From positions 1 to 20,856 of the IMG/VR virus record IMGVR_UViG_3300051212_000161: 20,856 bases of DNA. The stretch is one strand, 5' to 3'. Shown one piece after another: positions 1,076-19,167 of the stretch (its first letter is position 1; each line of letters opens with the position of its first letter). Under the pieces are notes generated by a model. It did no database searches. It was not told where the DNA came from and saw only the letters and a program-made list of their open reading frames with translations. The DNA comes from a virus. Position numbers and translations under genes: made by a program.

Positions 1076-2050
1076 ATGACAGAAGAAACCAATGAGACTC
1101 AACAATTTGAATATCAACAACCACCAGTAGTAGCTGAGGCTGATAATCAAGTTAAAAAAGTTGAACAATCTCCAGTCTCTAGTCCAGAAGAAGTTCAAGT
1201 AGCAAGAGAGCGTGTTGCATTTGAAACTTATGTAAAAAACCAAGGTCTTGAAATCCCAAAAAATTTTAAAGACTCTAATGCTTGGTTTGACTCATTAAAA
1301 AACGCTCAAAAAGAATATACTAAGGCTCGTCAGGAAATTGCAGATCTTAAAAAAACATATGAAAAAACTGGTGCTGTAAACCAAAACTATGTTGATCCTG
1401 CATCTGAAGTAACTAATAACCAATTAGATCCAGAGCCTCAAGTAGAAACTATTCCAGAAGAATTAAGAATTCCCGAAATTCAAAAAAAGGAAGAACAAAT
1501 TAAATCAACTCCTTCTGTTATTTCAGAAGAAGACTGGTCTAAGTGGTCTATGGAAGTAGCTGTTAGTAATAAACTATCTGATGAAACAGTTTCAGAAATT
1601 AAAACTAAAACTGGATTTACTGATAGAATGATTACAGATTATGTAGAGGGACAAAGAGCAAGATCCCGAGAAGCCTTTGGTAAGGCTGCTGATGTTGTAG
1701 GTAGTAGAGAAAAGTTGTCATCTATCTTTACATGGGCTGCAAAGACAATGACACCACAACAGCAAGCAGAAATTAATGCAAACCTAGCTAGCCCAAGTTG
1801 GGAAATTGCATTACTTGGTCTGCAAGCTAAATATGATAAAGCTACTGTAAACACAGCTAAGGGTAAAGAAATGCCAGCTAATAAAAAACAAGTCAATGTG
1901 GCTTCAACAAAGCAGGCACTTCAACCCTATAAGACAAAGCGCGAATTCTATGCTGACAGAGGCAATCCAAGATATGGATCGGATGCCAAATTCCGTCAAG
2001 CAGTTGAACAGCGTATAATGATGACGGATATAACCCGTCTTCCAAACTAA
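1076..2050 (+). CDS. Capsid assembly scaffolding protein (T7 gp9-like)
   Basis: 324 residues, highly charged, dominated by Glu, Lys, Gln and predicted helix, without membrane spans. The N-terminal 60 residues are acidic and Gln/Pro-rich, the middle is helical (for example around KNAQKEYTKARQEIADLKK, residues 75-95), and the C-terminus ends with a RY/D/F/V/R pattern (NPRYGSDAKFRQAVEQR) that resembles the capsid-binding end of podovirus scaffolds. Scaffolding protein directs assembly of the prohead shell and is then lost before DNA packaging. The place immediately before the major capsid gene is the canonical one in T7-like phages. The start at 1076 has an AAGGAG ribosome site 6-7 bases upstream. 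The call rests on composition, C-terminal motif and synteny. Confidence 0.85.
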   Translation: MTEETNETQQFEYQQPPVVAEADNQVKKVEQSPVSSPEEVQVARERVAFETYVKNQGLEIPKNFKDSNAWFDSLKNAQKEYTKARQEIADLKKTYEKTGAVNQNYVDPASEVTNNQLDPEPQVETIPEELRIPEIQKKEEQIKSTPSVISEEDWSKWSMEVAVSNKLSDETVSEIKTKTGFTDRMITDYVEGQRARSREAFGKAADVVGSREKLSSIFTWAAKTMTPQQQAEINANLASPSWEIALLGLQAKYDKATVNTAKGKEMPANKKQVNVASTKQALQPYKTKREFYADRGNPRYGSDAKFRQAVEQRIMMTDITRLPN

Positions 2051-2109
2051 GTTTAGTTATAAAGAAAATCCCCCTTATGGTAATGGATATCAATATAACA
2101 AAACAAACA

Positions 2110-2129
2110 TTAAAGAGACTCCTTTTGGA
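2110..2129 (+). promoter_or_regulatory. Candidate phage promoter-like 20-mer upstream of capsid gene
   Basis: In the 168-base leader between scaffold and capsid genes there is a 20-mer (TTAAAG, three variable bases, CTCCTTTTGGA) that matches 16 of 20 positions of a 20-mer just upstream of the large terminase gene (16237-16256). It also loosely resembles the T7-class promoter layout: TAA, then GACTC, then GG, with one base fewer between GACTC and GG. The rest of the leader is AT-rich, contains a short inverted repeat AACTAA/TTAGTT at 2045-2058, and ends in an AAGGAGA ribosome site for the capsid gene. The promoter role is inference only. Confidence 0.3.
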
Positions 2130-2218
2130 AAAATCATTTTTAATGTTAGTTTAAGATTTGTCACTTGTTCTATTTATTTTATTTACTATAAACTTAAACT
2201 AATAAGGAGACTTTAACT

Positions 2219-3478
2219 ATGGCACAATATCCCGGTGACTTGGCTCATACTGATCTCGTAATGCGTACCGATGTAACCGCTAATCCACTAGGTGGAGCAG
2301 CTGGTGCTAACAAGCTATGGCTACCACTATGGAGCGGTGAAGTAATTCACGCTTACGATCAATACAATATGTTTGAAAACATGATTACTACTAAGACCCT
2401 AACTGGTGGTTATTCTTACGAATTCCCAGTTACTGGTACTATCGCTCTAAATCCAGCATGGGATGCAGGCGAAGAACTACTTGGTGGTGATGCTAGCAGC
2501 ACAACTTTCAAGGTAAATCTTGATAAGCGTCCAATGGCCGCTCACTTTGAATGCGATAATGTCGATCTTCTAGTAACTCAATGGGATTACCGTAGCGAGC
2601 TAGCTCGTCAATCAGGTCTTACCCTAGCTAATACTAGAGATCGTCAGCTAGCTGTATCTCTACTTGCAGCCTGTGCAGTAGATTCACTAAACAGTGATCC
2701 TAGAGGCACTGATTTTACTACCAATGCTTTCCAAGCACCAAAAGTAGTCCATGCTTCAACTACCGCTGCCAATGTAACTGATGCAGAAGCATTAGTTCTT
2801 CTACAAAAGATTGAAGATTATCTAGTAACTTGTCAGGAAAACGACCTACCAGTACAAAATGTATATTGTGCTGTAACTCCAAAGGTATTCCAGACAATCC
2901 GTGCTCTAGGTATTCCAAGAGCAAATACTGCATATTCAAACTCACCACTATTTGGTGCTTCAGACAACTGGGGTGGTAATGGTTCTCAAATCAGTATGGG
3001 AATGAATATGATGACTGATAGTTTAGATTATATGGGTGTAAAGATTGTTAAAACCAATCACATTCCAAAGACCAATCTTGCTGCTTCAGCAAGCACTTCA
3101 ATTGGTTCAAGCAAGTATAATCTTAACTTTGCTTCTGCTGCTTATAACAACGCTACTGCTCAAGGTTTTAGTGCTTTCAGCGTTTACGGTATTCTATTCC
3201 AGCCAGAAGCAGTTGCTGGTCTATCACTACAGGGTATGAAGGTTGACACCGTACAGGATGTCCGTCGTAATACTCAGTTTACCGTTGCTAGCATGATGAA
3301 GGGTACTGGCATAATTCGACCAGAACTATGCTGCGCCCTTATTTCAGGTGCTGCTACAGACTCAACTATTGATCGTGCATCTCTACGAGATCACCTTAAT
3401 GGTTGGGGTGTAAGTGGTACTGCCAAGCATGATAACCTAACCAATGGTTTCAGCGCAGAATACGCCGTAACCAGCTGA
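2219..3478 (+). CDS. Major capsid protein (T7 gp10-like, HK97 fold)
   Basis: 419 residues. The N-terminal region (DLVMRTDV, then LPLWSGEVIHAYDQYNMFE around residues 34-53) and the segment with FECDNVDLL followed by a helix (YRSELARQSG) match the T7-type major head protein family, which forms the icosahedral shell. T7 gp10A is 345 residues, so this is a somewhat longer family member. The gene has a strong AAGGAGA ribosome site 8-9 bases before ATG, a 168-base leader, and a strong intrinsic terminator downstream, the arrangement expected for the most abundant virion protein. Codon choice is visibly different from its neighbours: CGT arginine and more C-ending codons instead of AGA and T/A-ending ones, consistent with selection for high expression. 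Confidence 0.93.
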   Translation: MAQYPGDLAHTDLVMRTDVTANPLGGAAGANKLWLPLWSGEVIHAYDQYNMFENMITTKTLTGGYSYEFPVTGTIALNPAWDAGEELLGGDASSTTFKVNLDKRPMAAHFECDNVDLLVTQWDYRSELARQSGLTLANTRDRQLAVSLLAACAVDSLNSDPRGTDFTTNAFQAPKVVHASTTAANVTDAEALVLLQKIEDYLVTCQENDLPVQNVYCAVTPKVFQTIRALGIPRANTAYSNSPLFGASDNWGGNGSQISMGMNMMTDSLDYMGVKIVKTNHIPKTNLAASASTSIGSSKYNLNFASAAYNNATAQGFSAFSVYGILFQPEAVAGLSLQGMKVDTVQDVRRNTQFTVASMMKGTGIIRPELCCALISGAATDSTIDRASLRDHLNGWGVSGTAKHDNLTNGFSAEYAVTS

Positions 3479-3600: not shown

Positions 3601-4269
3601 ATGGGTTTTATAACCAAGCTACAGGCAATTAATCAAATGTTATTAACGGCTGGCGAATCTCTAGTAGCCGACCTAAACGAAAGTTCTGGTATTGATACAG
3701 GAATTGCTGAAACAATTCTAGAACAATCAAGTCTAGATATCCAAATGAGAGGTCTAGCTAATAACAAATTAGTACGAAAATTTAATCCAGACTCAACAGG
3801 TAAGATTATCTTTGATTCTGGTGATTCTGATGAAGAAGGTATAATCTCAGCAGAGCTAATATCATGGCATTTAAATACAGACGGTCTTAAAATAACCGCA
3901 AAACTACTTAGTGATAATCCACCAAGATTATATAACTATACAGACGAAACAGATGTATGGACTACTGGTGATTATTATGTTGAAGTAATTAAAAAATTAA
4001 GATGGGAGCATCTTGATACTCCAGTTCAAAGAGCTATTATGGCTAGTGCTATGAGACAATATCAGATCATTACACAAGGTGATGGTGAAGCTGATAGATA
4101 TCTTGAATACAATGAACAGATGTTTCACCTAAAAGGTAAGGCTTCTGATATTAACGATAAGAAACGAAATATCTTCCATACTGGAGATGCTAATGTTCGT
4201 GGTGCAGTATTTAGAAACCCATACATTTATGATCCATCAAGATACCGTTATTGGAGAGGAGATAGATAA
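3601..4269 (+). CDS. Tail tubular protein A (T7 gp11-like gatekeeper)
   Basis: 222 residues, close to the T7 gp11 length of about 196. The N-terminus (KLQAINQMLLTAGE, then LNESSGIDTGIAETIL) is the characteristic helix-loop-helix start of podovirus gp11/gp4-type adaptor proteins. The C-terminal half includes a helix-rich stretch (DTPVQRAIMASAMRQYQ) also typical of the family. The protein assembles as a ring of twelve below the portal and joins the head to the tail nozzle. The gene has a strong AAGGAGG ribosome site and follows the capsid terminator; its TAA overlaps the next gene's ATG (TAATG), so the two tail-tube genes are probably translated together. Confidence 0.9.
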   Translation: MGFITKLQAINQMLLTAGESLVADLNESSGIDTGIAETILEQSSLDIQMRGLANNKLVRKFNPDSTGKIIFDSGDSDEEGIISAELISWHLNTDGLKITAKLLSDNPPRLYNYTDETDVWTTGDYYVEVIKKLRWEHLDTPVQRAIMASAMRQYQIITQGDGEADRYLEYNEQMFHLKGKASDINDKKRNIFHTGDANVRGAVFRNPYIYDPSRYRYWRGDR

Positions 4270-7200
4270 TGCCACCAATGAGAAGAAGACCACCCGGATC
4301 TAAGGCTAGTACTAGAATCCCTATTTTGAGTTTATCTAGCGGTGTATCAACCCAAGCACCAAGCAAAAGACTTCCACTAGAAGCAGAAGTTATGGATAAT
4401 GCTTTAATTTCATTAGAAAGATCTTTTGAAAAAAGACCCGGATTTGAAATTCTTCCACAGATTTCTTTTACAGGAAATAATTCATTAGCTGATTCAAACC
4501 GTTTAGATTTATTTAGATGTGTTGAAAATTTAGCACAAGATGCTAATAAAGATTTCTGGTGGTATTGGTTTACTATTAATGAAAATAACAGATTCTTAAT
4601 TGGTATTGATTATAAAGCTAGTGCTGCTAATTCAGTTTTATTTTATGTATTTAAAATAAACGCAACCAATTGGGAAGATATTACACCAACAACAGCAACA
4701 AACCAACAAGGAACAACTATTGTTTCTACTTCAACTAGAGAATATATTACTTATGGTAATGCTTCATATAAAGCAAGAGATGTTTTAAAAGCAACTACAG
4801 TTGGTTCTAGTATTATTGTATTAAATACTTTAGTAAAGGCTGGTTTTACCTCTAGTGATAATGGATTCTTGTTTAATCTTGATGGTACAGAATCAACTAC
4901 ATTAGATACTAAAGGTAAAAAAGTAACTTATTATACCTCAAGTAGAGTATCAGGAACAACAGGTAGTCTTGAAACAAATTCATCTTCAAGTTCTATAACA
5001 GGAAATGCAGTTCCAGATCCATTTACATGTGCTACTATTATTCCAGATACTTCAATATTAAATCAAACAGTATTATTTTATAATTCTTCTGCTAGTACTT
5101 CAGCCGCAAACTCAAAGTATTTAACAGGAACAGTAACTAATATTTACAATAGCGATGCAAATACATTAAAGTTTGCTGATACACCAGTTGCTTTTAAACA
5201 AACAACAACATCATCCTTTACAGGAAGTTCTATTTTAAATACTACAGTTACTTTAACAACTAATGCAACTATTCCATCACAAGTAGCTGCTAATCAAAAT
5301 GTTCTTGTTTGGGTTGATACCGATAATTATTTTACTGGTACTATTACATCAGCGTCTAGCACAAGCCTTGTTCTTAAAGTTAATTTTGTAAGCCCAACTT
5401 TAAAAGCAGCAACTACAGCAAATACAGCAACAAAAAATATTGGATATGAGTGTATGACGGTAGATGTTAATTACATTAGTCCAACTCTTTTAGCAGATAC
5501 TGTAGCAAACTCTACATGGACTATTTTGTGGGGTGTATTTGTTCCAGTAGAAGACTTTGTTTACAAGGACTCAACACAACCTTGGCTTGGACAGTCTTTC
5601 GCAGACTTTAGTGAAATTAGATTCCCACCAGAAGCAACAGAAGTATACGCAAATAACGGAAACTTTGTTGGTGCGTATACCATTGATGAGTCAGCAAAAA
5701 CAATGCTTGATGCCTTATATGATTCTGATCATCCACTAGAATCACAAAGTGCACTTAATGGTAGAGGTAAAATTTATTATACAGCAGGACCATACCTAAG
5801 TCAAACTTCTGGTTATTATAGAATAGTTAATTTTCCAGAATCTATATCTTATAAAGACGGCTCTACTAGAATAAATGGTAAAGGTAGACCCTATACACAA
5901 AAGGTTCGTTCTCCAGACTTATACTCTGTTATTGATGAGCGAAGAATGCCACAAAAGCTTACATTTAATGAAGCACCAACAGGTATAAATAGTGACTGGG
6001 TATTTGCTCCAATTGCATGGGAACCAAAAACAACTGGTAATAGATATTCTAATCCCGGTCCAAGTGTATTCTTAACTGCTGATAAAAAAACAGCAAGACA
6101 AGTAAGAATTAATGCAATTGCAACATTTAGAGATCGTCTATATTTTGCTGCTGAAGATGTTATCTTTTCAACGCAATTAGGTATTTATGAAGACCTATTC
6201 TTAGCAGATCCTAGTAACATTGTATCATCAGACCCAATAGATATTAGAGCATCTTCTAAAACATATGCTGAAATTTCATCTATTACTCCCTTCAGTGATT
6301 TCTTATTTATCAATACAAAGGGTGACATTCAGTTTGAATTGAGAGGTTCTGAAAATCAAATTACTCCACTTACAGCCCAAATAGCACCAACATCTTTCTA
6401 CGCTACAGCTAAATTAACAGATCCTATTCTAATGGGTTCTTTAATTTATTTCTTTGATAAGCGTAGATTATATATGTACATGACTCAACAAAGTGGATCA
6501 TTAAGTACTGCTCAAGAAATCTCAAGTCATTGTGGTGATTATTTACCAACAAACTATAGAGCAACTTGTTCATGTCCAGCTCAGAATACCATTGTAACAG
6601 TAGATGATGATAATCCAAATTATCTATATCTATATACTAATAGATTTTCCGGTGACAAAGTATTACAAAATGCTTTCTATAGATATATCCTAGAAACAGG
6701 AAATGAAATTGAATCTAGTCAGGTATATGATAATTATCTACACCTCGTTATTAAAAAGAAATCTCAAGATGGTTTAAAATACGAATATTATATTCAAAGA
6801 ACTTATCTACAAAAGCAAGATAAAGGAATTCCAAAATTAGATAATTATTGTTTAATTAATTTATATGAAAATTCCAATTGTTCTTATAACACATCTACAA
6901 ACGAAACAAGATTCAATGTAGTATTTCCATATTCTTTTGATCCAAGTAAGGTTCTTTTAATAACAGATCCTAGTGATTCAAAATGGGGAGAAAGAAAATA
7001 TACTGTAATTAAACCAGATTATGTAGCTAATGCCAATGGTATTGGTTATATCTTCTCAGTAAATGGAAACTATGTAGTTAATCAAGCTAGATTATATATT
7101 GGTACTAAGTTTACAATGAATGTTGAACTAAGTACTCAGTTTGTAAGAGATCAAAATAACAATGTTATTGATGGTGTTCTAAATTTAAAAACACTTACAT

Positions 7201-7475
7201 TAAGACACGCAGATACTGGAAATTATGATATTATTGCAACAAGAAGAGGTAAATCAGTTATTCAGTCTAAATTCTCTGCTCTAATAACTAATAATAATCT
7301 AGATTCTCTTAGTATTGAGAATACAGAAAAGAGTGGAGAGTTTGTTGCAAAAGTATTTGGATTCTCTGATACAACAAGAATTCAAATAGTTTCTGATTAT
7401 CCAACACCAGTAAATATTATTAACATGGAACTTAAAGGTAAGTTTACTCAAACATATACTTCCTTAAATACTTAA
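4269..7475 (+). CDS. Tail tubular protein B (T7 gp12-like nozzle)
   Basis: 1068 residues, clearly longer than T7 gp12 (794). Near the N-terminus the pattern of SLSSGVSTQAPSKRLP, then a run to LERSFEKRPGFE (residues 21-60) matches the conserved gp12 start, where SGG/QQP-like and KRP motifs mark the family. Later parts are typical of the beta-propeller nozzle (for example RDRLYFAAEDVIFST and FINTKGDIQFELRG). The protein forms the hexameric nozzle at the tail tip, through which DNA leaves. The extra length is at least partly two tandem beta repeats at about residues 258-375. The gene directly follows and overlaps the gp11 homologue. Confidence in the family is high; the role of the insert is unknown. 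Confidence 0.9.
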   Translation: MPPMRRRPPGSKASTRIPILSLSSGVSTQAPSKRLPLEAEVMDNALISLERSFEKRPGFEILPQISFTGNNSLADSNRLDLFRCVENLAQDANKDFWWYWFTINENNRFLIGIDYKASAANSVLFYVFKINATNWEDITPTTATNQQGTTIVSTSTREYITYGNASYKARDVLKATTVGSSIIVLNTLVKAGFTSSDNGFLFNLDGTESTTLDTKGKKVTYYTSSRVSGTTGSLETNSSSSSITGNAVPDPFTCATIIPDTSILNQTVLFYNSSASTSAANSKYLTGTVTNIYNSDANTLKFADTPVAFKQTTTSSFTGSSILNTTVTLTTNATIPSQVAANQNVLVWVDTDNYFTGTITSASSTSLVLKVNFVSPTLKAATTANTATKNIGYECMTVDVNYISPTLLADTVANSTWTILWGVFVPVEDFVYKDSTQPWLGQSFADFSEIRFPPEATEVYANNGNFVGAYTIDESAKTMLDALYDSDHPLESQSALNGRGKIYYTAGPYLSQTSGYYRIVNFPESISYKDGSTRINGKGRPYTQKVRSPDLYSVIDERRMPQKLTFNEAPTGINSDWVFAPIAWEPKTTGNRYSNPGPSVFLTADKKTARQVRINAIATFRDRLYFAAEDVIFSTQLGIYEDLFLADPSNIVSSDPIDIRASSKTYAEISSITPFSDFLFINTKGDIQFELRGSENQITPLTAQIAPTSFYATAKLTDPILMGSLIYFFDKRRLYMYMTQQSGSLSTAQEISSHCGDYLPTNYRATCSCPAQNTIVTVDDDNPNYLYLYTNRFSGDKVLQNAFYRYILETGNEIESSQVYDNYLHLVIKKKSQDGLKYEYYIQRTYLQKQDKGIPKLDNYCLINLYENSNCSYNTSTNETRFNVVFPYSFDPSKVLLITDPSDSKWGERKYTVIKPDYVANANGIGYIFSVNGNYVVNQARLYIGTKFTMNVELSTQFVRDQNNNVIDGVLNLKTLTLRHADTGNYDIIATRRGKSVIQSKFSALITNNNLDSLSIENTEKSGEFVAKVFGFSDTTRIQIVSDYPTPVNIINMELKGKFTQTYTSLNT
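5040..5393 (+). repeat. Two tandem protein repeats inside the nozzle gene
   Basis: Two segments of the gp12-like protein resemble each other with a 70-residue period: YLTGTVT at residues 284-290 and YFTGTIT at 354-360, each preceded by a VLFYN/VLVWV-type strand and followed by a strand ending in L-F or V-F. They look like small beta domains inserted into the nozzle protein and would explain about half of its extra length relative to T7 gp12. Confidence 0.6.
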
Positions 7476-7490: not shown

Positions 7491-10400
7491 ATGCCTACTA
7501 ATGCTTTATTAAAAACAAATGTAAGTGGAACTTGGAATTCATCAACAGGTTTATCTTACTCACAAATACCAACTATATCAGGAATTGCTCACAAGGATCA
7601 GTTAGAAGTTGAAAGAATTTTTACTGTACCAAGCGGAACAATCCTAACACAAGAAGACTTTAGAAAAATTTATATTATTGCTTCAAATAACTATACAGTT
7701 GATGAAACCAATAAAAAGATTACCGCATTCTCAGCAAGTTTCCCTTCATATACTACTGTAGGTGGTGTAACTATTACAGTACCTGCAATTACAAATGGTG
7801 CTGCTATTTCAATAAGAAGAAAGAGCATTACCAGTGAAGCATTAGTTAGTTGGGTTGATGGTACTAGACTTACTGCTAGCCAACTAAATCTTCAGACATC
7901 TCAATTAATAAGCGTTGTTCAAGAAATTCTTGATAGAATGAATTATGAGTTTGTTACCGCTACAGATCTAGATTATAACTTTGGTTACAAGTGGTCAACA
8001 AGAACTTGGGTTGAAGGAAGACTTGGTGCTATTTCAACCGATGTTAAAACTTATATTGATGCTGCTGACACAAACTTACAAAATCAAATTACAGCAGCTG
8101 TTGGTGTAAATACAACACAAAACGGTAGACTTGATGCTATTGAATCACTAAATACATCACAAACATCTAGTATTAATACACTAAATACAAGAGTAAGCCC
8201 ATCTACCAGTCTTACTGGAACATACTCAGCATCTAATCTTTCAGCAGCAGTAAATGGTCTAGATACCAGAGTAACCTCTGTCGAATCTACAAATACAACT
8301 CAAGGTAATAATATTACTGCGCTACAAAGTAAGGTTGATGTTTCAACAGCTTTATCTAATAGCTATGTTAGTCTAACTGCTGGAGTAAATGATTTACATT
8401 CAAGAGTATCTGCAACAGAAGCTACCAATACAACCCAAACAAGCAATATCTCAGCACTACAGACAAAGGTTGGTGCTGGTACTGTAACTGGTACTATTGT
8501 TGCTAATGGTTCTGATATTATTACAGCAGTAAATGCTATTGATGATTATGTAACCAACGCAGTAACAACCAGTACAAACACCATCTTTAATGGTCATGCT
8601 CAGGGTAGAATTGTATATGCTGGTGCTAACGGAACTAAAGATAGCACAGCAAACTTTACAATTACCCCTAGTGGCACTAGTCCAACAGTACTAACACTAG
8701 CAGGAAATCTATCACAAACTGGTAATATTACTCAAACAGGTAATACAAATATTACTGGTAATCTAACACAAACAAGTGGAACACTTAGTTTAACAGGCAA
8801 CGCTGGTTCATTACTAAGTCTAACTGGTACTATTACGCTAAATGCTGGTACTGGAACTGTACCAACTATTACTGGAGCTGCCTCACAGAAGATTATTGCT
8901 TTTAAAAACTCAAGTGCAGTTGAAGTAAATGCTATTGACCAATATGGTAATCTTACTGGTAGAGCCACAGCAACTTATGGCTCTAGTTCACCAACAAATC
9001 CAATTGCTGGTACTATTTGGTATGATTCAGCTAATACTGCTTTTAAGATTTATAATGGAAGTGCTTGGACTCAGATTAGTACTACAACCCTAGCTAATTA
9101 TGTTGGTCTTTCTGGTAATGAAACTGTTGCTGGAAATAAAACCTTCAGTGGAGATACAGTTTTAGGAAACGGTACAGCAACATTACCACTAAAGGTAAAT
9201 AGAACAACAAATGGAAATATTGCTGAATTCTGGGAAACAGATGGTACTAATAACCCAAGATTAGTTATTTCTGCTGATTCTGCTGTTGGTATTACTTTAC
9301 AAGAAACATATTCAAATGCTGCAAATAACCTAATCTTTAAAATTGGATCTACTGAAGCAGCTAGATTTAATGGACTTAATTTTGGTATTGGTACTACAGC
9401 ACCTAAAGCAAAACTAGATGTTTCAACAGCTTATACTGGTACATTTACAACTAAAAAACTATATAAAACTTGGAAACAAGTACCAAATAGTCATGGCCAC
9501 ACAAGTTATTCACACTGTTATCTAAAATTATTTAGATTACCAGAAGCTATTGCAGATAGTTGGAATAACACAGCGTTTACAATATGTGGTACTATGATGG
9601 TTAATAGAGGAAATGATTTAGGTATTACAACAAGTCAATATCTCTATATAAGTAAAGCTTATTCTACAACAGGATATAGTGCAGCATTACTAGAAGGATG
9701 TGTTCATTATGGTTATATTGGATTTGAACCAACACAAGGAAGTCAAGAAACATTACAACTTGTTAAAGTAAACGATGGTGGTGTTGATTGGGTATGTCTA
9801 TATTATTATTCTACTGGTGCAAATATAGATGTTTGGACTTTTGATGGTGTTCTTCATTTTAATGATGCTGCTATTTCAGATAATAAACATTGTTTTGATT
9901 TAGCAGACCCAACCCTAATTCTTGGTCCAACATTAACAGGAGGACCCCTCCCAACATCAGTACTGCACACAACACTTGCCTATACTGGTCGTAGAGTAGA
10001 ACTTGGTGACTTTGCTGGTACTGCTATGTCAATTGGTAGTGGTGAAGATGCTTCTTCATTCGGTAGTGCTCCACTAATCGTAACAAACGATGGAGTTACA
10101 AACCTAGCAATTAGAGATTCTACAAATGATGTAGAATTAATAAATTGTGTAAACTCAACTGGTGGATTTATAGGATCTTATACAAACCACCCACTAGAAA
10201 TTAGAACAAACAATACTAGTAAGATTAGAGTTGAAACTAGTGGTCAGGTTGAAATTGGTGCTTCAGCTATAGCAAACACACAATCTACTACAAACCTTAG
10301 TGTAAGAGGCGGTGCTAGCGGAAATGGTCTAGAATGGGGACATTCTAATCAAGCTGGATATAATAACACACTTGGACAACTAACAGGTAATGGTGGTGGT

Positions 10401-12062
10401 TTTATTGCATTCAGTGCAGAACATGGAACTAATGCAAATACCTTTAGAACTAGAGGTATTAAGGGTGCTGGTATTGTCTCTGATAATAATGGTGGTCTAT
10501 ATTTAGGAACCTTAGCTACAGCAAGTGCAGATAACCAAACAATGGACTATAGAGCACGGTTATTTAATAACGGTGACTTTGCTATAGATACAAGTACTTT
10601 ATTTGTTGATGCTACAAACCATAGAGTTGGTATTAATACAGCTTCTCCGTCAACAACATTAGAAGTTTCTGGTCCAACAAAACTAGTTCAAAATGCCACA
10701 ACTTTATATTTATATGGAACAGATCATAGCTATCTTTCATTCTATCCAAGAGGACAAGCAGAAGGTCGTAAAGCATATATTGGTTTTGGTGGAGCATCTA
10801 CTACAAATCTAACTATTTCAAATGAAGATACTGGAGCTATTCACATATTAAATGGAGCAGCAACAAGACTTAGTATTGCTAACAATGGTAATACTGAAAT
10901 AGATGGAACTACTTTCTTTGTTGATGCTGTTAACAATAGAATTGGTATGGGTACTACAGCTCCAACAGATGAACTTAATATTAATACAGCTGATGATGTA
11001 ATTACTAAACTATCAGGTTATGGCGGTACTCATCGTAGTTATTGGGGTGTAAACTCAGTTTCTCCTTGGATTGGTACTGAAACAGCCCATGATTTTAGAT
11101 TGATTACCAATGCAACAGAAAAGATGAGAATTAGTTCTAGTGGTCTTGTTGGAATTGGTGGAGCTAGTACTGGTACAAAATTAGAAGTAATGTGTACTGG
11201 AACTGGTAGTGATGGTATTAATATAAAAAACACTGGTAACTCAGCCTACGGTTCTCTACATATTCAAGGAACAACTGGTGGAGTTGGAAGTTGGGCTAAT
11301 GGATTTGTAATTGAAGGTGTTCCAGCATCCACAGGAAATACAATTCTTTCATCTTATAATAACTCTCTTGTATTCCAAACTGGAACATCAAGAACACAAA
11401 GAATGAGTATTGATTCTACTGGTATTATTAGTATCGCTGGACCAACCACATTTAATGATAATGTTACTATAGCATCTACAAAGAAACTAGTAACCCCTAC
11501 AGTACAAACAGATGTAATTCAAAGTACTGGTACTTTAGAATTCCGTGGTGATTATGATGCTACTGGTGGTACTACAGCAGATATGACTATTAATGCTAGT
11601 GGTGTAGTTGTATTTAACCAACCACCACTATATGGGGCAGTTCCATTATCATATCCAGAAACAGAAGTATTTGCACAAGCTGCTGGAGCTTCTACTGGGT
11701 TTAGGTTTAATACAAATTATACACAACACGATCCAGCTAACTTTCCACAAACTAGATATATAAAACAAGGAAGATTTGTAACAGTAAGTGGTGCTATTAA
11801 AGCAACAACTACTAGAGCACACAGTGAAACAGAATATCAACTTTTAGGTTTACCAGCACCAGCACAATTAGTTTGTGGTTTAGCTACAGGTGTTGTATTC
11901 GCAAATTCTGTACATAGTCATAATACTTGTTTATTAAAAATTGATACAAGTGGACGGCTTTATTTTACACAACTACAAACAGGACAAACAACTCAAGTAC
12001 TGCCAAGTATTCGTACAGATACTTGGTTAACTTTTAATATAACATATATGACAGCAGCATAA
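7491..12062 (+). CDS. Tail fibre protein with T7 gp17-type N-terminus
   Basis: 1523 residues. Residues 30-150 match the T7 tail fibre N-terminal domain that attaches the fibre to the tail: VERIFTVPSGTILTQEDFRK, the NNYTVDE and VTITVPA strands, ISIRRKS and the WVDGTRLTASQLN stretch before a helix. Residues 180-355 are coiled-coil with three approximate 45-residue repeats. Residues 365-470 are Thr/Gly/Asn-rich strands of a probable trimeric beta shaft. From about 620 onward there are four GIGT/P motifs of phage fibre shafts, and the last 100 residues form a probable C-terminal receptor-binding tip. No C-terminal chaperone-peptidase motif is evident. The gene sits straight after the nozzle, whereas in T7 four genes lie between. 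An AGGAG ribosome site is 9 bases upstream. Confidence 0.92.
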   Translation: MPTNALLKTNVSGTWNSSTGLSYSQIPTISGIAHKDQLEVERIFTVPSGTILTQEDFRKIYIIASNNYTVDETNKKITAFSASFPSYTTVGGVTITVPAITNGAAISIRRKSITSEALVSWVDGTRLTASQLNLQTSQLISVVQEILDRMNYEFVTATDLDYNFGYKWSTRTWVEGRLGAISTDVKTYIDAADTNLQNQITAAVGVNTTQNGRLDAIESLNTSQTSSINTLNTRVSPSTSLTGTYSASNLSAAVNGLDTRVTSVESTNTTQGNNITALQSKVDVSTALSNSYVSLTAGVNDLHSRVSATEATNTTQTSNISALQTKVGAGTVTGTIVANGSDIITAVNAIDDYVTNAVTTSTNTIFNGHAQGRIVYAGANGTKDSTANFTITPSGTSPTVLTLAGNLSQTGNITQTGNTNITGNLTQTSGTLSLTGNAGSLLSLTGTITLNAGTGTVPTITGAASQKIIAFKNSSAVEVNAIDQYGNLTGRATATYGSSSPTNPIAGTIWYDSANTAFKIYNGSAWTQISTTTLANYVGLSGNETVAGNKTFSGDTVLGNGTATLPLKVNRTTNGNIAEFWETDGTNNPRLVISADSAVGITLQETYSNAANNLIFKIGSTEAARFNGLNFGIGTTAPKAKLDVSTAYTGTFTTKKLYKTWKQVPNSHGHTSYSHCYLKLFRLPEAIADSWNNTAFTICGTMMVNRGNDLGITTSQYLYISKAYSTTGYSAALLEGCVHYGYIGFEPTQGSQETLQLVKVNDGGVDWVCLYYYSTGANIDVWTFDGVLHFNDAAISDNKHCFDLADPTLILGPTLTGGPLPTSVLHTTLAYTGRRVELGDFAGTAMSIGSGEDASSFGSAPLIVTNDGVTNLAIRDSTNDVELINCVNSTGGFIGSYTNHPLEIRTNNTSKIRVETSGQVEIGASAIANTQSTTNLSVRGGASGNGLEWGHSNQAGYNNTLGQLTGNGGGFIAFSAEHGTNANTFRTRGIKGAGIVSDNNGGLYLGTLATASADNQTMDYRARLFNNGDFAIDTSTLFVDATNHRVGINTASPSTTLEVSGPTKLVQNATTLYLYGTDHSYLSFYPRGQAEGRKAYIGFGGASTTNLTISNEDTGAIHILNGAATRLSIANNGNTEIDGTTFFVDAVNNRIGMGTTAPTDELNINTADDVITKLSGYGGTHRSYWGVNSVSPWIGTETAHDFRLITNATEKMRISSSGLVGIGGASTGTKLEVMCTGTGSDGINIKNTGNSAYGSLHIQGTTGGVGSWANGFVIEGVPASTGNTILSSYNNSLVFQTGTSRTQRMSIDSTGIISIAGPTTFNDNVTIASTKKLVTPTVQTDVIQSTGTLEFRGDYDATGGTTADMTINASGVVVFNQPPLYGAVPLSYPETEVFAQAAGASTGFRFNTNYTQHDPANFPQTRYIKQGRFVTVSGAIKATTTRAHSETEYQLLGLPAPAQLVCGLATGVVFANSVHSHNTCLLKIDTSGRLYFTQLQTGQTTQVLPSIRTDTWLTFNITYMTAA
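8148..8552 (+). repeat. Three ~45-residue coiled-coil repeats in the tail fibre
   Basis: Within the fibre, residues 220-354 contain three imperfect copies of a unit that begins with NTSQ or NTTQ, continues with I-x-x-L-x-x-(K/R)-V, has a variable Ser/Thr-rich middle and closes with a V-N-x-(L/I)-(D/H) helix. Copies start near residues 220, 267 and 312. This is expected of a trimeric coiled-coil neck. Confidence 0.75.
9372..11189 (+). repeat. Four GIGT-x-x-P fibre motifs in the tail fibre
   Basis: A motif widely seen in phage fibre shafts occurs four times: at 9372-9425 (GIGTTAPKAKLDV), 10602-10673 (FVDATNHRVGINTASP, then LEV), 10917-10985 (FVDAVNNRIGMGTTAP, then LNI) and 11133-11189 (GLVGIGGASTGTKLEV). 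The two middle copies share the FVDA-x-N-x-R lead-in. They are spaced irregularly and separated by non-repeated beta-rich domains, which are the likely variable parts. Confidence 0.75.
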
Positions 12063-12073
12063 GGAATTTTAAT

Positions 12074-12337
12074 ATGCCAGATAATCAAATATCAGTCTAT
12101 GTTGCTTTTATGCAACTAGCAATTCTAACAATAGGAGTAGTAACCGTAATTCTAAGAATGGGTAAAAGAGATGCTATGATTGATCGTAGTATGGACGAAT
12201 TATTGGTACTAAAAGATATTGCAAAAGACCTTGTTAAAACAGATATTGAACAAGGTAAAAATATTATTATGGTAATGAGTGAATTAAAAGAACTTAGACA
12301 TCGTATAGAAATTTTAGAAAAAATTAGATATGAATAA
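12074..12337 (+). CDS. Small single-span membrane protein, holin-like topology
   Basis: 87 residues. Residues 7-28 (starting SVYVAFMQLAILTIGVVTV) form one membrane span, followed at once by Lys/Arg residues and then by a charged helix with heptad-like hydrophobic spacing to the C-terminus. One N-terminal span plus a cytoplasmic coiled coil is the layout of small holin-like or bacteriocin-like phage proteins, and the basic residues after the span predict the C-terminus inside. It follows the fibre gene, overlaps the next membrane gene by 8 bases, and has an AAGGA ribosome site. A lysis role is likely by position and topology but not shown by a recognised motif. Confidence 0.8.
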   Translation: MPDNQISVYVAFMQLAILTIGVVTVILRMGKRDAMIDRSMDELLVLKDIAKDLVKTDIEQGKNIIMVMSELKELRHRIEILEKIRYE

Positions 12338-12812
12338 ATTATTCTTAACTATGTTGTTACTATGTGGTTGCTCTTCTGTTAATCAGATATCTACTAGTAA
12401 CCATATAGTTCAAGAAAACGCAATTAAAATTCTTGATACTCAAGATATAACTATTGCTCATAAACACGCGGAAATTATTTTAGGTGAAACAAAAGATATA
12501 GCAGATGCCATTAGTGGAGTTAAAGATATTACCCCTTGGTGGGCTTCTTTAATTCAATATGGATTTATCTCTATTATCTTTATTGGTATTGTAATCATTC
12601 TATGGCAGACAGGTATAGGCCAAGCTATCCGTCTTGCCATAGGATGGATACCAAGTAATAAAAAGAAAGAAGCTGCTCTAGCTCAATCTGTATTAGATGA
12701 ATCTAAACCAGAGGGTATTAGAGAATGGATTGCAGCCAAGCGTCTTAGTGATCCAGAATTTGATGCTGCATGGAGAAAGGAAAATAACAATGCCGGGAAA
12801 AAGACCGATTGA
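12330..12812 (+). CDS. Lipoprotein with added membrane span; possible unimolecular spanin
   Basis: 160 residues. The N-terminus is a lipoprotein signal with lipobox L-C-G-Cys14 after a hydrophobic stretch, so Cys14 would be lipidated. Residues 15-68 are a soluble segment, residues 70-93 (WWASLIQYGFISIIFIGIVI) a membrane span, and the last 55 residues are charged and soluble with a weak amphipathic part at 95-108. A lipoprotein anchor plus a distal inner-membrane span is the plan of u-spanins such as T1 gp11, which fuse the membranes at lysis. The long tail after the span is not typical of u-spanins, so the assignment is tentative. It overlaps the preceding holin-like gene by 8 bases and the next gene by 23, suggesting a lysis cassette. 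Confidence 0.75.
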   Translation: MNKLFLTMLLLCGCSSVNQISTSNHIVQENAIKILDTQDITIAHKHAEIILGETKDIADAISGVKDITPWWASLIQYGFISIIFIGIVIILWQTGIGQAIRLAIGWIPSNKKKEAALAQSVLDESKPEGIREWIAAKRLSDPEFDAAWRKENNNAGKKTD

Positions 12813-13512
12813 TATTGGACAACATTCAGCAGACCGTGGTATTCTAAAAAGAAATACTACTGGAGTAATTCATAATCTTAAAGAAGAAAATCTTTCTGGT
12901 TTTGCTAGTAAAGAAAACTCTTTGGGTCAGTTTGGTGCTACTACTTCAGCAGAACTAGCAGCAGTAATCACAGATGAATCTGGAACAGGTAATTTAGTAT
13001 TTGGTACAAGCCCAACACTAAATGAACCAGTTATTAACACTATAAAGTTAGACACAACATCTAAAATAATTACAGCATCTTTACTAACAGGAAGTACAAC
13101 TATTGTTCCAATTATGTCTTTTCCTCTATACAAAGGAAATCTATTAACTAATGATTATGATGTAATAGGTTCAATTGAGTTTACTGTTCAAACAGAAGTC
13201 GGTGATACTACAGGAACAGCATTACCCGGAAAACTAACTAAAAGAAAAATAACAAAAATATTGGCTGCTTTAAATCACGATTATGAAGATACTAGTATTG
13301 CTCAATCTCCTAGTGTTAACTTTGTAGAATATGGTAATACATATGTAACTGCTTCAGATTTTGCAGTCTATAGTGTAGTTTATGATTCTACTGATCAACA
13401 ATTTGAATTCCGCGTAGCTCCATTATTAACAAATACTATGTTACATAGAGTAACTGCTATATGTACTTTAGGTATTGATAAACTATGGAGTACTGGTTTT
13501 ATTGCACAATAA
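12790..13512 (+). CDS. Fibre-related structural protein
   Basis: 240 residues from the ATG at 12790. This start is preferred because AAAGGAAA stands 7-8 bases upstream and it leaves only a 23-base overlap with the preceding gene; an in-frame upstream ATG at 12697 would overlap by 116 bases without a ribosome site. Residues 38-75 contain the phage tail motif TSAELAAVITDESGTGNLVF followed by TSPTL, which recurs in many tail fibre and structural proteins. The rest is beta-rich without membrane spans. The context, between the lysis-like genes and further beta-rich genes, suggests an accessory tail appendage. I cannot tell whether it attaches to the main fibre or to the nozzle. Confidence 0.75.
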   Translation: MPGKRPIDIGQHSADRGILKRNTTGVIHNLKEENLSGFASKENSLGQFGATTSAELAAVITDESGTGNLVFGTSPTLNEPVINTIKLDTTSKIITASLLTGSTTIVPIMSFPLYKGNLLTNDYDVIGSIEFTVQTEVGDTTGTALPGKLTKRKITKILAALNHDYEDTSIAQSPSVNFVEYGNTYVTASDFAVYSVVYDSTDQQFEFRVAPLLTNTMLHRVTAICTLGIDKLWSTGFIAQ

Positions 13513-16262: not shown

Positions 16263-17945
16263 ATGCACGCACCACAAGAAATGATTGATGATTTTAGAAA
16301 CCACCTATGGGCTTGTTTTAAGTATCTTGGATTAGGAGAACCAACCCCAATTCAATACGCTATGGCAGAAACTATGCAAACAGGACCAAAGGACTTCCAG
16401 TTACAGGCTGGCCGTGGTGCTGGTAAATCTGTAATCAACGCTTGCTATGCTAGCTGGAGATTACTAACAAATCCAGATAGAACTATTATGGTTATATCAG
16501 CAACTCAAGATCGAGCTATTAAGTTCATCTCACAAGTAAGAAAGATTTTAGATGTTGTTCCTTATTGTGAACACCTAAAGCCAAAAGAGTCTGATAAAGA
16601 TAATGCATTCGGTTTTAATGTTGGTTGTCGTAAAGTATATGGTCAGGATTTGTCTTGTTATGCTAAAGGTATTACAGGTCAGATAACTGGTAGCCACGCC
16701 GATGATATTATTGCAGACGATGTTGAGATTGAAGAAAATGCAGATACTCCTTCAGCAAGAGATAAACTTCTAAATAAATTAGCAGAGTTAGAACAAATTA
16801 GAAATAATACTCCAGATGGTTGTATTCGTATTCTGGGTACTTTTCAATCAACTGATAGTATTTATATGAAGTTATCTAATTCATATCCAATTATTAAATT
16901 TCCTGCGGTTATGCCTAACCCAGAGATTCCCGGTGAAATAGATAATTGTTCTGAATACATCCTAAAGTTGGACCTAGAAGTAGGAGAATCAACACAACCA
17001 GAGAGATTCCCTTTAGATGTCCTCAAGTCTAGAGAGGCTAAGATTGGTCCTAGGTTATTCTCATTACACTATAAATTAGATCCTACTCTTAGCGATAGAG
17101 CTAAGTATCCCCTTAAGTTAGAGGATTTAATTGTTATAGATGTTAATCCTGAATTATTTCCAGAAAAAATTACTTGGGAAAAGCGTACTGTTAAGAAAAT
17201 AGAATCTTATGGTATCAGCGGAGATCTTATATATGAACCACAATGGATTAGCCCTAATTTTATACCGTATATGCAGACTGCCATGTTTGTTGACCCTAGT
17301 GGTCGCGGATCAGACGAAACAGCTATTTGCATTGCATCATTTGTTAATGGCTATGTCATCATACATGAATTGCTTGGTTTGCAAGGAGGATACGAAGAAG
17401 CCTTATTAAAGAAGATTGCTAAGTTAGCTTATCAATATGATATTAATTTAATTAGAGTTGAAGCTAACTTTGGTGATGCTATGTATTGCAATCTATTAAG
17501 ACCTGTTGTATCTGAAATATGTGGTCAAGTTGCTATTGAAGATTTCAAAGTATCTGGTACTAAAGAAACTAGAATTATTAGAACTTTAGAACCAATAATG
17601 GCTGTTCATAAACTAATATTTAATACTAAAGCTATTAAAGATTCTGAAAATCAAAAACAAATAACTAGGATTACTGAAAAAAGAGGTAGTCTTAAACACG
17701 ACGATAGAGTAGATATTTTAGCTAGTGCTGTTGCCTATTGGCAAGATTCTTTATCAATTGATGCTGATTCTCAAATTGAAAGAAATAAACAAGATGAGTA
17801 TAAGCAACAAATTAAAGATTGGCTTAATAATAAAAGAGCTTTAGGTTTACTTGGTGAACGAGTAAGTGGAGCTATTCTTGTAAATGGAAATCCATTAAGT
17901 AATAAAAAAAGTTATCCAAGTATTTTAAAAAGAAGGTTTAAATGA
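16263..17945 (+). CDS. Terminase large subunit (T7 gp19-like)
   Basis: 560 residues, close to T7 gp19 (586). The ATPase domain has a Walker A GRGAGKS at residues 50-56, Walker B ADDIIADDVE at 146-154 with the following acidic catalytic residues, and the coupling motif GTFQS at 192-196. The nuclease domain follows a long linker, with FVDPSGRGSDET (Asp344) at 342-352, RVEANFGDAMY (Glu400) at 398-408 and KHDDRVDILASAVAYW (Asp480-481 and Asp484) at 478-493. The enzyme hydrolyses ATP to pump DNA into the prohead and cuts the concatemer. The start has a GGAGG ribosome site. The stop overlaps the next gene's ATG (ATGA). Confidence 0.96.
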   Translation: MHAPQEMIDDFRNHLWACFKYLGLGEPTPIQYAMAETMQTGPKDFQLQAGRGAGKSVINACYASWRLLTNPDRTIMVISATQDRAIKFISQVRKILDVVPYCEHLKPKESDKDNAFGFNVGCRKVYGQDLSCYAKGITGQITGSHADDIIADDVEIEENADTPSARDKLLNKLAELEQIRNNTPDGCIRILGTFQSTDSIYMKLSNSYPIIKFPAVMPNPEIPGEIDNCSEYILKLDLEVGESTQPERFPLDVLKSREAKIGPRLFSLHYKLDPTLSDRAKYPLKLEDLIVIDVNPELFPEKITWEKRTVKKIESYGISGDLIYEPQWISPNFIPYMQTAMFVDPSGRGSDETAICIASFVNGYVIIHELLGLQGGYEEALLKKIAKLAYQYDINLIRVEANFGDAMYCNLLRPVVSEICGQVAIEDFKVSGTKETRIIRTLEPIMAVHKLIFNTKAIKDSENQKQITRITEKRGSLKHDDRVDILASAVAYWQDSLSIDADSQIERNKQDEYKQQIKDWLNNKRALGLLGERVSGAILVNGNPLSNKKSYPSILKRRFK

Positions 17946-18466
17946 ATATAAATGTAGTAACTGGTTTTGGTCAAAGAACTGGAACTTCTTTTATTATGCA
18001 AAAAGCAAAAGAAAAAGGATTGCCAATAATAGGTGAAAAATTTATAACTGGTTTAACTGTTGAAGAACACAATCCAAATGGATATTGGGATATTAATCCT
18101 TTTAAACTAACCAATTTATTATCTAATAGTAAATTAAATAATTCAATATGTAAACTTTGGTTTAATTCTTTACAACATATAAATAAAGATTATATAAATC
18201 ATATAGTTGTAGTTGAAAGACAAAATAAAGTAAAGCAGTTTGAAAGTATGTATAAAGTTTTGCAAGACGAGTTAAAACTACCGCTTTGTAAATTCTTTTA
18301 TAACAACGAAACAGTTGAAGAAATATATACTAATACAACAAATGGTTTAATAAATTGGTTAAATCAAGTAGATAAAGATAAAATCTTTTGGGTTTATACA
18401 GAAGATTTAAATGAAAAAATAGACGATGTTCTAAATTTTTTAGAAAGAGGTCTTAAATGCCGTTAA
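17942..18466 (+). CDS. Sulfotransferase-like P-loop protein
   Basis: 174 residues. The N-terminal strand plus loop NVVTGFGQRTGTSFIMQ (residues 4-20) matches the start of the sulfotransferase family, whose 5'-PSB loop reads like VSGLPRSGTS. Then NPNGYWD at 44-50 matches the NPxGYxE motif seen downstream in members of that family. HIVVVERQNKVKQF at residues 87-100 aligns with the strand and Arg that bind the 3'-phosphate of the sulfate donor PAPS. Members transfer sulfate from PAPS to sugars or other acceptors; the acceptor here is unknown. At 174 residues it is shorter than usual, so activity is uncertain. It overlaps terL by 4 bases and the next gene by 10, so it is locked in the late operon. 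This stretch is very AT-rich. Confidence 0.7.
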   Translation: MNINVVTGFGQRTGTSFIMQKAKEKGLPIIGEKFITGLTVEEHNPNGYWDINPFKLTNLLSNSKLNNSICKLWFNSLQHINKDYINHIVVVERQNKVKQFESMYKVLQDELKLPLCKFFYNNETVEEIYTNTTNGLINWLNQVDKDKIFWVYTEDLNEKIDDVLNFLERGLKCR

Positions 18467-19167
18467 TAGTTGGTGGAATTTTAGGTGGAATTTCTTTAGG
18501 TGGAAGTCTTCTTAGTGGCTTTGGTGCTTCTAGTCAAGCACAAGCTCAAGCAATGCAACAACAACTAATTGCACAAAACGCAAACTTCCAAAGACAATGG
18601 CAAATTCAGGCCAATAATCGTAATATTGAAAAAGCTAATTTAGCTAAAGCAATTAACAATAAAGCAATTGAACAAACTGCACTAAGTGAAAGAGCTATTC
18701 AAGAAGTCTATACAGAACTTGGATATGATAATGCAAAAGGTCAATTTAGTAAACAAACAAATCAAGTTAATTCTGCTTTACTATCTAGTGTATCTGGTAG
18801 AAATATCTCAGCATCTTCTGGTACAGCAAGAGCTTTACTAAGACAAAACTTAGAAAACGCAACAGTAAATATGGCTAATTTAAGAATTAATCGTATGAAT
18901 AAAATGAGAGATATTCAAACAACCTATCAAAATAAATTAGCTCAAAGAGATTTTAATTACCAAGAACTACAAGTATATCTTCCCGGATATTCTGGAATGG
19001 TAGAAGCAAATAATACAGGTCAAATTTTAGCTAGTGGTGCTCTTAGTGGCCTACAGGCTGGTATTACTGGTGCTCTATTATATGGTCAGGGTAGCGGTGG
19101 TGGAGGCGGGGTAGAAAGTTATACAACACCCGGTGGTTCTAACTTTGTTGGCCCTATAAAGGGATAA
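18457..19167 (+). CDS. Internal virion protein (T7 gp14-like)
   Basis: 236 residues. A hydrophobic Gly-rich start (IVGGILGGISLGGSLLSG) leads into GASSQAQAQAMQQQLIAQNA and a long Gln/Ala/Asn helix with ANNRNIEKANLAKA (residues 50-70), the pattern of the small internal core protein of T7-like podoviruses. The C-terminal 35 residues are Gly-rich. T7 gp14 is about 196 residues; it is ejected at infection and forms an outer-membrane pore for DNA entry. The Ala/Gly-rich start would be the membrane-inserting part. The start overlaps the sulfotransferase-like gene; AAAGAGG supplies a ribosome site. The placement after terL rather than before the fibre is unusual for T7. Confidence 0.85.
   Translation: MPLIVGGILGGISLGGSLLSGFGASSQAQAQAMQQQLIAQNANFQRQWQIQANNRNIEKANLAKAINNKAIEQTALSERAIQEVYTELGYDNAKGQFSKQTNQVNSALLSSVSGRNISASSGTARALLRQNLENATVNMANLRINRMNKMRDIQTTYQNKLAQRDFNYQELQVYLPGYSGMVEANNTGQILASGALSGLQAGITGALLYGQGSGGGGGVESYTTPGGSNFVGPIKG

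Follow-up and report, generated by a model that had tools for sequence, protein, structure and literature searches.

A short, probable sulfotransferase-superfamily gene in an optional cassette downstream of terL in a family of uncultured phages

The Locus

The window analyzed here is the whole 20,856-nucleotide stretch of IMG/VR record IMGVR_UViG_3300051212_000161, and its layout is that of a T7-like late region. Scaffold and capsid genes (1076–3478) are followed by tail proteins (3601–7475) and a long fibre-like protein (7491–12062), after which come the small and large terminase subunits, the open reading frame at 17942–18466, and genes in the internal-core position. The large terminase gene, terL (16263–17945, plus strand), is readily recognized (phrog_38, E 1.7e-96; Pfam Terminase-T7_RNaseH-like, E 3e-31), and is less than 40% identical to the best annotated phages among the matches listed. 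Elsewhere in the window, a small HNH-endonuclease-like protein (830–1066; phrog_4590, phrog_333) is encoded just 5′ of the scaffold gene and has relatives in contigs of L004, L007, L009, and L021, which are kin of L001. The reading frames at 12330–12812 and 12697–13512 lie on the same strand in different frames and overlap by 116 nt; the start of the second may be further downstream.

The open reading frame at 17942–18466 (plus strand) is intact and encodes 174 residues. From its translation, its same-site homologues, and the fold and profile evidence given below, it is most probably a short sulfotransferase-superfamily gene. Its start overlaps the terL stop as ATGA, only an AGAAGG-like stretch inside terL is present 5′ of the start, and translation of the gene is presumably coupled to that of terL. 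A sequence-only reading of this DNA had proposed ATGA-type overlaps on both sides. This is true at terL but not downstream, where the gene shares 10 nt (18457–18466, ATGCCGTTAA) with the next late gene (18457–19167, plus strand) in a non-ATGA arrangement. The same reading placed the gene between terL and a gp14-like gene; the position stands, but the gp14-like label is positional only. The 18457–19167 gene yields no convincing PHROG or Pfam match, though a relative of it follows terL in the related phages that were read, and it sits directly after terL in phages whose slot is empty. The slot is bordered by terL on the left and by this gene, in the internal-core gp14 position, on the right.

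The short gene is under purifying selection, with dN/dS of approximately 0.19 between the window and L001 and approximately 0.2–0.5 in other pairs, and its protein evolves faster than terL.

A T7-type RNA polymerase is encoded in 13 of 15 related contigs, and the longest contigs reach 60–67 kb. One group (G001, G003, G004, G009, G010, G024–G029, and G031) consists of phages of up to 60–67 kb with a T7-type RNA polymerase; the usual genome of a T7 relative is 40 kb, smaller than in this group. Related phages also carry an adenylosuccinate synthase-like gene (with a weaker PurZ match, all below cut-off) immediately followed by a GMP reductase gene above its NCBIfam cut-off (L277:302–2451); these two purine-metabolism genes have a possible bearing on DNA base modification.

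Homologues Occupy One Site

With the window terL as query, 63 loci were recovered from IMG/VR and the gene after terL was read in each; homologues of the short gene follow terL in L001, L010, L011, L012, and L017. L080, picked up in addition by a motif scan, has the same order of genes but branches much further away on the terL tree. A wider alignment contributed approximately 30 further short forms, all between terL and the next late gene, and after a second terL scan from a sister clade the gene was found at the terL site of 51 phage loci, counting the window. Every short form found lies at this one site. Their lengths range from 159 to 174 residues, forms of 159–169 residues having appeared only with the second scan, and the C-terminus falls just past the helix that closes the core fold, which bears out the earlier remark that the protein is shorter than usual family members. 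The copy in G038 was considered as a pseudogene with an in-frame stop, and this was rejected: the stop is merely the end of a 159-residue protein. A scan of bacterial and archaeal genomes gave no close relative, and thus no sign of recent acquisition from a host, and tblastn against annotated phages gave no match for the window protein. A longer, 219-residue sulfotransferase-like gene is present in the distant relative L115 (1483–2142), in the replication region between primase-helicase-like and DNA-polymerase-like genes rather than next to terL.

An Optional Cassette

The sequence-only reading regarded the gene as fixed in the late operon, and called for inspection of the same locus in related phages. 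That inspection overturns the claim. Among 132 related phages (terL rows) with a readable site, the gene is present at the same locus in 51, the site is empty in 73, and an unrelated gene stands there in eight, so that 81 of the 132 lack the gene or have it replaced. No second copy was found elsewhere in the contigs of gene-lacking phages. The replacing gene matches PHROG short tail fiber protein and tail fiber adhesin families; examples of this unrelated gene, 152–176 residues in length, are L007:11686–12144, L018:2051–2545, L019:5713–6231, and L061:11686–12216. On the terL tree the presence state changes at least 13 times, with 10 of the changes forced by well-supported branches, and a smaller tree under a richer model requires at least 4–6 changes among the nearest relatives of the window.

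The borders of exchange are visible in closely related pairs. Identity between L010, which carries the gene, and L021, which does not, is 97.7% on the terL side, up to a point approximately 30 nt short of the terL stop, and resumes at 96.7% approximately 52 nt into the next gene. The pairs L198/L231 and L205/L196 have exchange borders at nearly the same points. By analogy with L010/L021 and L198/L231, the exchangeable cassette in the window spans approximately 17911–18510 (no strand assigned), comprising the last 5–11 codons of terL, the gene, and the first 17–25 codons of the next gene. The gene is optional: at one conserved site, phages have many times over acquired this cassette, lost it, or swapped it for another gene.

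Relationship to Sulfotransferases

In scans of Pfam, PHROG, and NCBIfam, no model was matched by any single short form scanned, and the cut-offs of PF13469 and PF00685 were reached neither by the window protein nor by six short homologues, L126, L138, or L150. The window protein is not filed under either Pfam family because it scores below the curated cut-off. Weak family-scan matches were dismissed as chance, for instance NCBIfam PRK08350, which scored 17 bits where the cut-off is 624. Searches of the PDB with the single sequence (phmmer) and with a six-row profile likewise gave no credible match.

The motif scan also yielded longer phage proteins that share the R[TS]GTS, NPxGY, and Arg/Ser signatures. 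Of these, L081 scores above the gathering thresholds of both Sulfotransfer_1 and Sulfotransfer_3, and L153, L155, L158, and L162 score above the Pfam threshold for one or both. A profile of 22 short forms (A5) was aligned by hhalign to a profile of six longer phage relatives (A7, including the last four) with 99.6% probability and E 2.1e-24 over residues 3–170, which is near full length; a second short-form profile (A3) matched the set that includes L081 (A2) at 98.6% and E 1.5e-15. The longer relatives were found by shared motifs, so these E-values are somewhat flattered, but the match still spans the length of the protein. The window protein lies below the Pfam cut-offs, but the comparison with Sulfotransfer profiles that the sequence-only reading had proposed comes out in its favor through the Pfam-positive relatives. 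When the sets were pooled (A6), a profile search of the PDB returned almost exclusively sulfotransferases, headed by SULT1B1 (E 1.4e-7), whereas the short-form profile alone reached the same SULT1B1 entry at E 0.3 only. Since no single short form matches the family models and the short-form profile alone stops at this value, the family assignment depends on the intermediates.

Predicted Structure

An AlphaFold model built from 31 sequences has a pLDDT of 95.1 and a pTM of 0.91, and displays an alpha/beta fold with a central sheet that resembles solved sulfotransferases; in Foldseek the resemblance is modest in both runs, with kinases close behind. The closest PDB entry to this model is Stf0 (1tex; E 8.5e-4, with a modest TM of 0.56), followed by the CurM sulfotransferase (4gbm). 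An earlier model from six sequences again ranked Stf0 first (E 2.8e-4), the TM being 0.56–0.57 over both runs. In a library of viral structures, an uncultured phage protein labelled "Sulfotransferase family protein" ranks second. Beyond the last strand the chain has one helix and then stops, lacking the C-terminal lid seen in longer relatives such as L081.

Sulfotransferases make up most of the top 50 PDB matches, with guanylate kinases interleaved. P-loop kinases are the next structural neighbors in both PDB runs, as would be expected if the protein were a small nucleotide or small-molecule kinase with a guanylate-kinase or NRK-like fold. However, the short forms have RTGTS (22 of 22) where kinases have GKS/T, the PDB profile matches are sulfotransferases rather than kinases, and homology to Pfam-positive sulfotransferases extends over the full length. 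A nucleotide kinase identity is largely refuted and was rejected because the Walker A lysine (GxxxxGK[ST]) is absent, leaving a small kinase of this sort highly improbable.

The PAPS Site

Members of the sulfotransferase superfamily have been defined by their sheet architecture, by a PAPS loop that contains Lys or Arg, and by a Ser located on the 3′-phosphate helix (PMC11625862). The sequence-only reading had picked out GQRTGTS, NPNGYWD, and an Arg-containing strand, and these are indeed present at residues 10–16, at residues 44–50, and in a strand ending at Arg93 (VVVERQ). The first belongs to the 5′-phosphosulfate (P-loop) motif GFGQRTGTS (residues 8–16; 17963–17989, plus strand), in which R12, T13, G14, T15, and S16 are invariant in the 22 short forms; R12, G14, and S16 are also invariant in nine longer relatives. 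Arg12 occupies the place of the SULT lysine and the Stf0 arginine. In the NPNGYWD motif (18071–18091, plus strand), N44, G47, and Y48 are invariant among the 22 short forms, and NPxGYxE is common to the Pfam-positive relatives. An acidic residue, Asp or Glu, stands at position 50 in each of the 22 short forms, and nearly all of the longer relatives shown are acidic there as well; this residue is the best candidate for a catalytic base.

The predicted 3′-phosphate-binding strand-turn-helix runs from Arg93 to Ser102 (18218–18247, plus strand), both of which are invariant in the short forms. With one gap, they fall in register with the Arg and Ser of the longer relatives (hhalign against A2), and in the pooled-profile PDB search Arg93 is aligned with an Arg of SULT structures. 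The PF00685 pattern for this site is R-x3-D-x3-S (PMC11625862); in the window protein the spacing is R-x8-S, one residue over the usual R-x7-S, and the Asp is absent. The last core strand, VYTED (residues 151–155; 18392–18406, plus strand), aligns with the VFYEDI or LYYEDM strand of sulfotransferases, with V151, T153, and E154 invariant. K71 and W73 are likewise invariant among the 22 short forms. Judged from sequence, the signature residues appear to be those that bind the phosphosulfate and 3′-phosphate ends of PAPS in known members.

The sequence-only reading was to be refuted by the lack of a structural match to sulfotransferases, by missing PAPS-binding residues, or by a match to a different nucleotide-binding fold, and none of these came about. 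The model matches sulfotransferases, the protein retains the residues of the PAPS site, and Stf0 leads the structure comparison, with nucleotide kinases behind it. Profile comparison, PDB profile search, structure search, and invariant signature residues all back the sulfotransferase reading; both membership of the superfamily and retention of the PAPS-site signature are very probable.

Whether such a protein transfers sulfate is a separate matter. The missing lid, the longer Arg–Ser spacing, the compact size, and the faster change relative to terL would fit a protein that has kept the sulfotransferase fold and PAP or PAPS binding, has lost sulfate transfer, and acts late in infection as a binding, structural, or regulatory factor. 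Some of the site residues should have been lost had the chemistry been abandoned, and for this reason the conservation of the P-loop Arg, Thr-Gly-Thr-Ser, the 3′-site Arg/Ser pair, and acidic residue 50 across 39–91% identity argues against a non-catalytic role, which we consider unlikely. The protein is likely to be an active enzyme.

Comparison with Known Sulfotransferases

Phage sulfotransferases have been seen in marine genomes. The closest known proteins are phage members of PF13469 (Sulfotransfer_3) and PF00685 (Sulfotransfer_1), for instance L155 (181 residues), L158 (185 residues), L153, and L162. These share with the window family the R[TS]GTS P-loop, NPxG[YF] with a later acidic residue, the Arg strand-turn-helix with its Ser, and a last [YF]ED strand that leads into an FL helix, within a full-length profile match. 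Unlike them, the window family is C-terminally shorter, spaces its Arg and Ser one residue further apart, is itself matched by no Pfam or PHROG model, and was found solely in the slot after terL, ahead of the next late gene.

Stf0, the mycobacterial trehalose 2-sulfotransferase (1tex) that leads both structural searches, has in common with the window protein an arginine in place of the PAPS-loop lysine (PMC11625862), but is approximately 245 residues long against 174, and the two are 11–12% identical. NodH-type Sulfotransfer_3 enzymes (PMC11625862) have a similar R-x-G PAPS loop, a likeness drawn from their description and offered as a lead. A phrase search of the literature for phage-encoded sulfotransferases found no paper. 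In the available portion of PMC10580990, OM43 phages are described as carrying Sulfotransfer_3 genes similar to one in Synechococcus phage S-SRM01. Like the window gene, these are phage-borne members of a sulfotransferase family; that portion reports them as metabolic genes identified by domain search, and does not describe a short form or a fixed site.

Proposed Function

On balance we favor a compact PAPS-dependent sulfotransferase that is expressed late from an optional cassette and modifies a host-surface or virion component; the sequence-only reading had likewise raised sulfation of host or virion glycans as a possible role. Late in infection, the short gene would be read from a message shared with terL. 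A search of the 15 related contigs for possible partner enzymes found neither APS kinase nor PAPS reductase; therefore, if the enzyme works, the host has to supply its PAPS. The acceptor of the sulfo group would be a hydroxyl or an amine; Arg12 would stabilize the phosphate leaving group, and Asp/Glu50 would probably serve as the base. The weakest part of this explanation is the target, most likely a host-surface or virion component (a glycan, glycolipid, or protein), which is favored because of two things alone, the late position of the gene and its alternation with an adhesin-type gene; that alternation is a weak hint of host-surface interaction. Possible benefits are that progeny would be kept off the envelopes of lysed hosts, or that adsorption would be tuned.

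The enzyme may instead act within the cell, on a nucleic acid, a small metabolite, or a molecule used by the host in defence or signalling, which would give it a metabolic or counter-defence role. The many gains and losses fit counter-defence as well, and phage sulfotransferases in general have no known role, their function being called unclear in PMC10580990. Two observations speak against an intracellular target: the gene sits in the late packaging and morphogenesis operon rather than with early or middle genes, and no partner gene tracks its presence. In the latter comparison, covering the gene content of 13 related contigs, no other family followed the short gene exactly; the perfect separation of the short gene itself is by construction. 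An intracellular target is accordingly rated as fairly unlikely, and modification of a host-surface or virion component is retained as the preferred reading.

A more specific version of the preferred reading, and a speculative one that we hold to be decidedly unlikely, is that sulfation of the virion itself, for example of internal or tail proteins from neighboring genes, is what keeps this distinct, phage-only minimal family at the terL site, and that this modification is toggled by cassette exchange. We know of no prior description of virion post-translational sulfation toggled in this way.

What is new is an unannotated minimal branch of probable sulfotransferases with an unusual on/off distribution at a single site. 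Phages almost identical on both flanks of the slot differ in whether they carry this family of minimal size, and these natural presence/absence pairs make its role directly testable. The work also defines an insertion slot in the packaging and morphogenesis operon, common to the short gene and an unrelated adhesin-type gene, at which optional late genes are exchanged.
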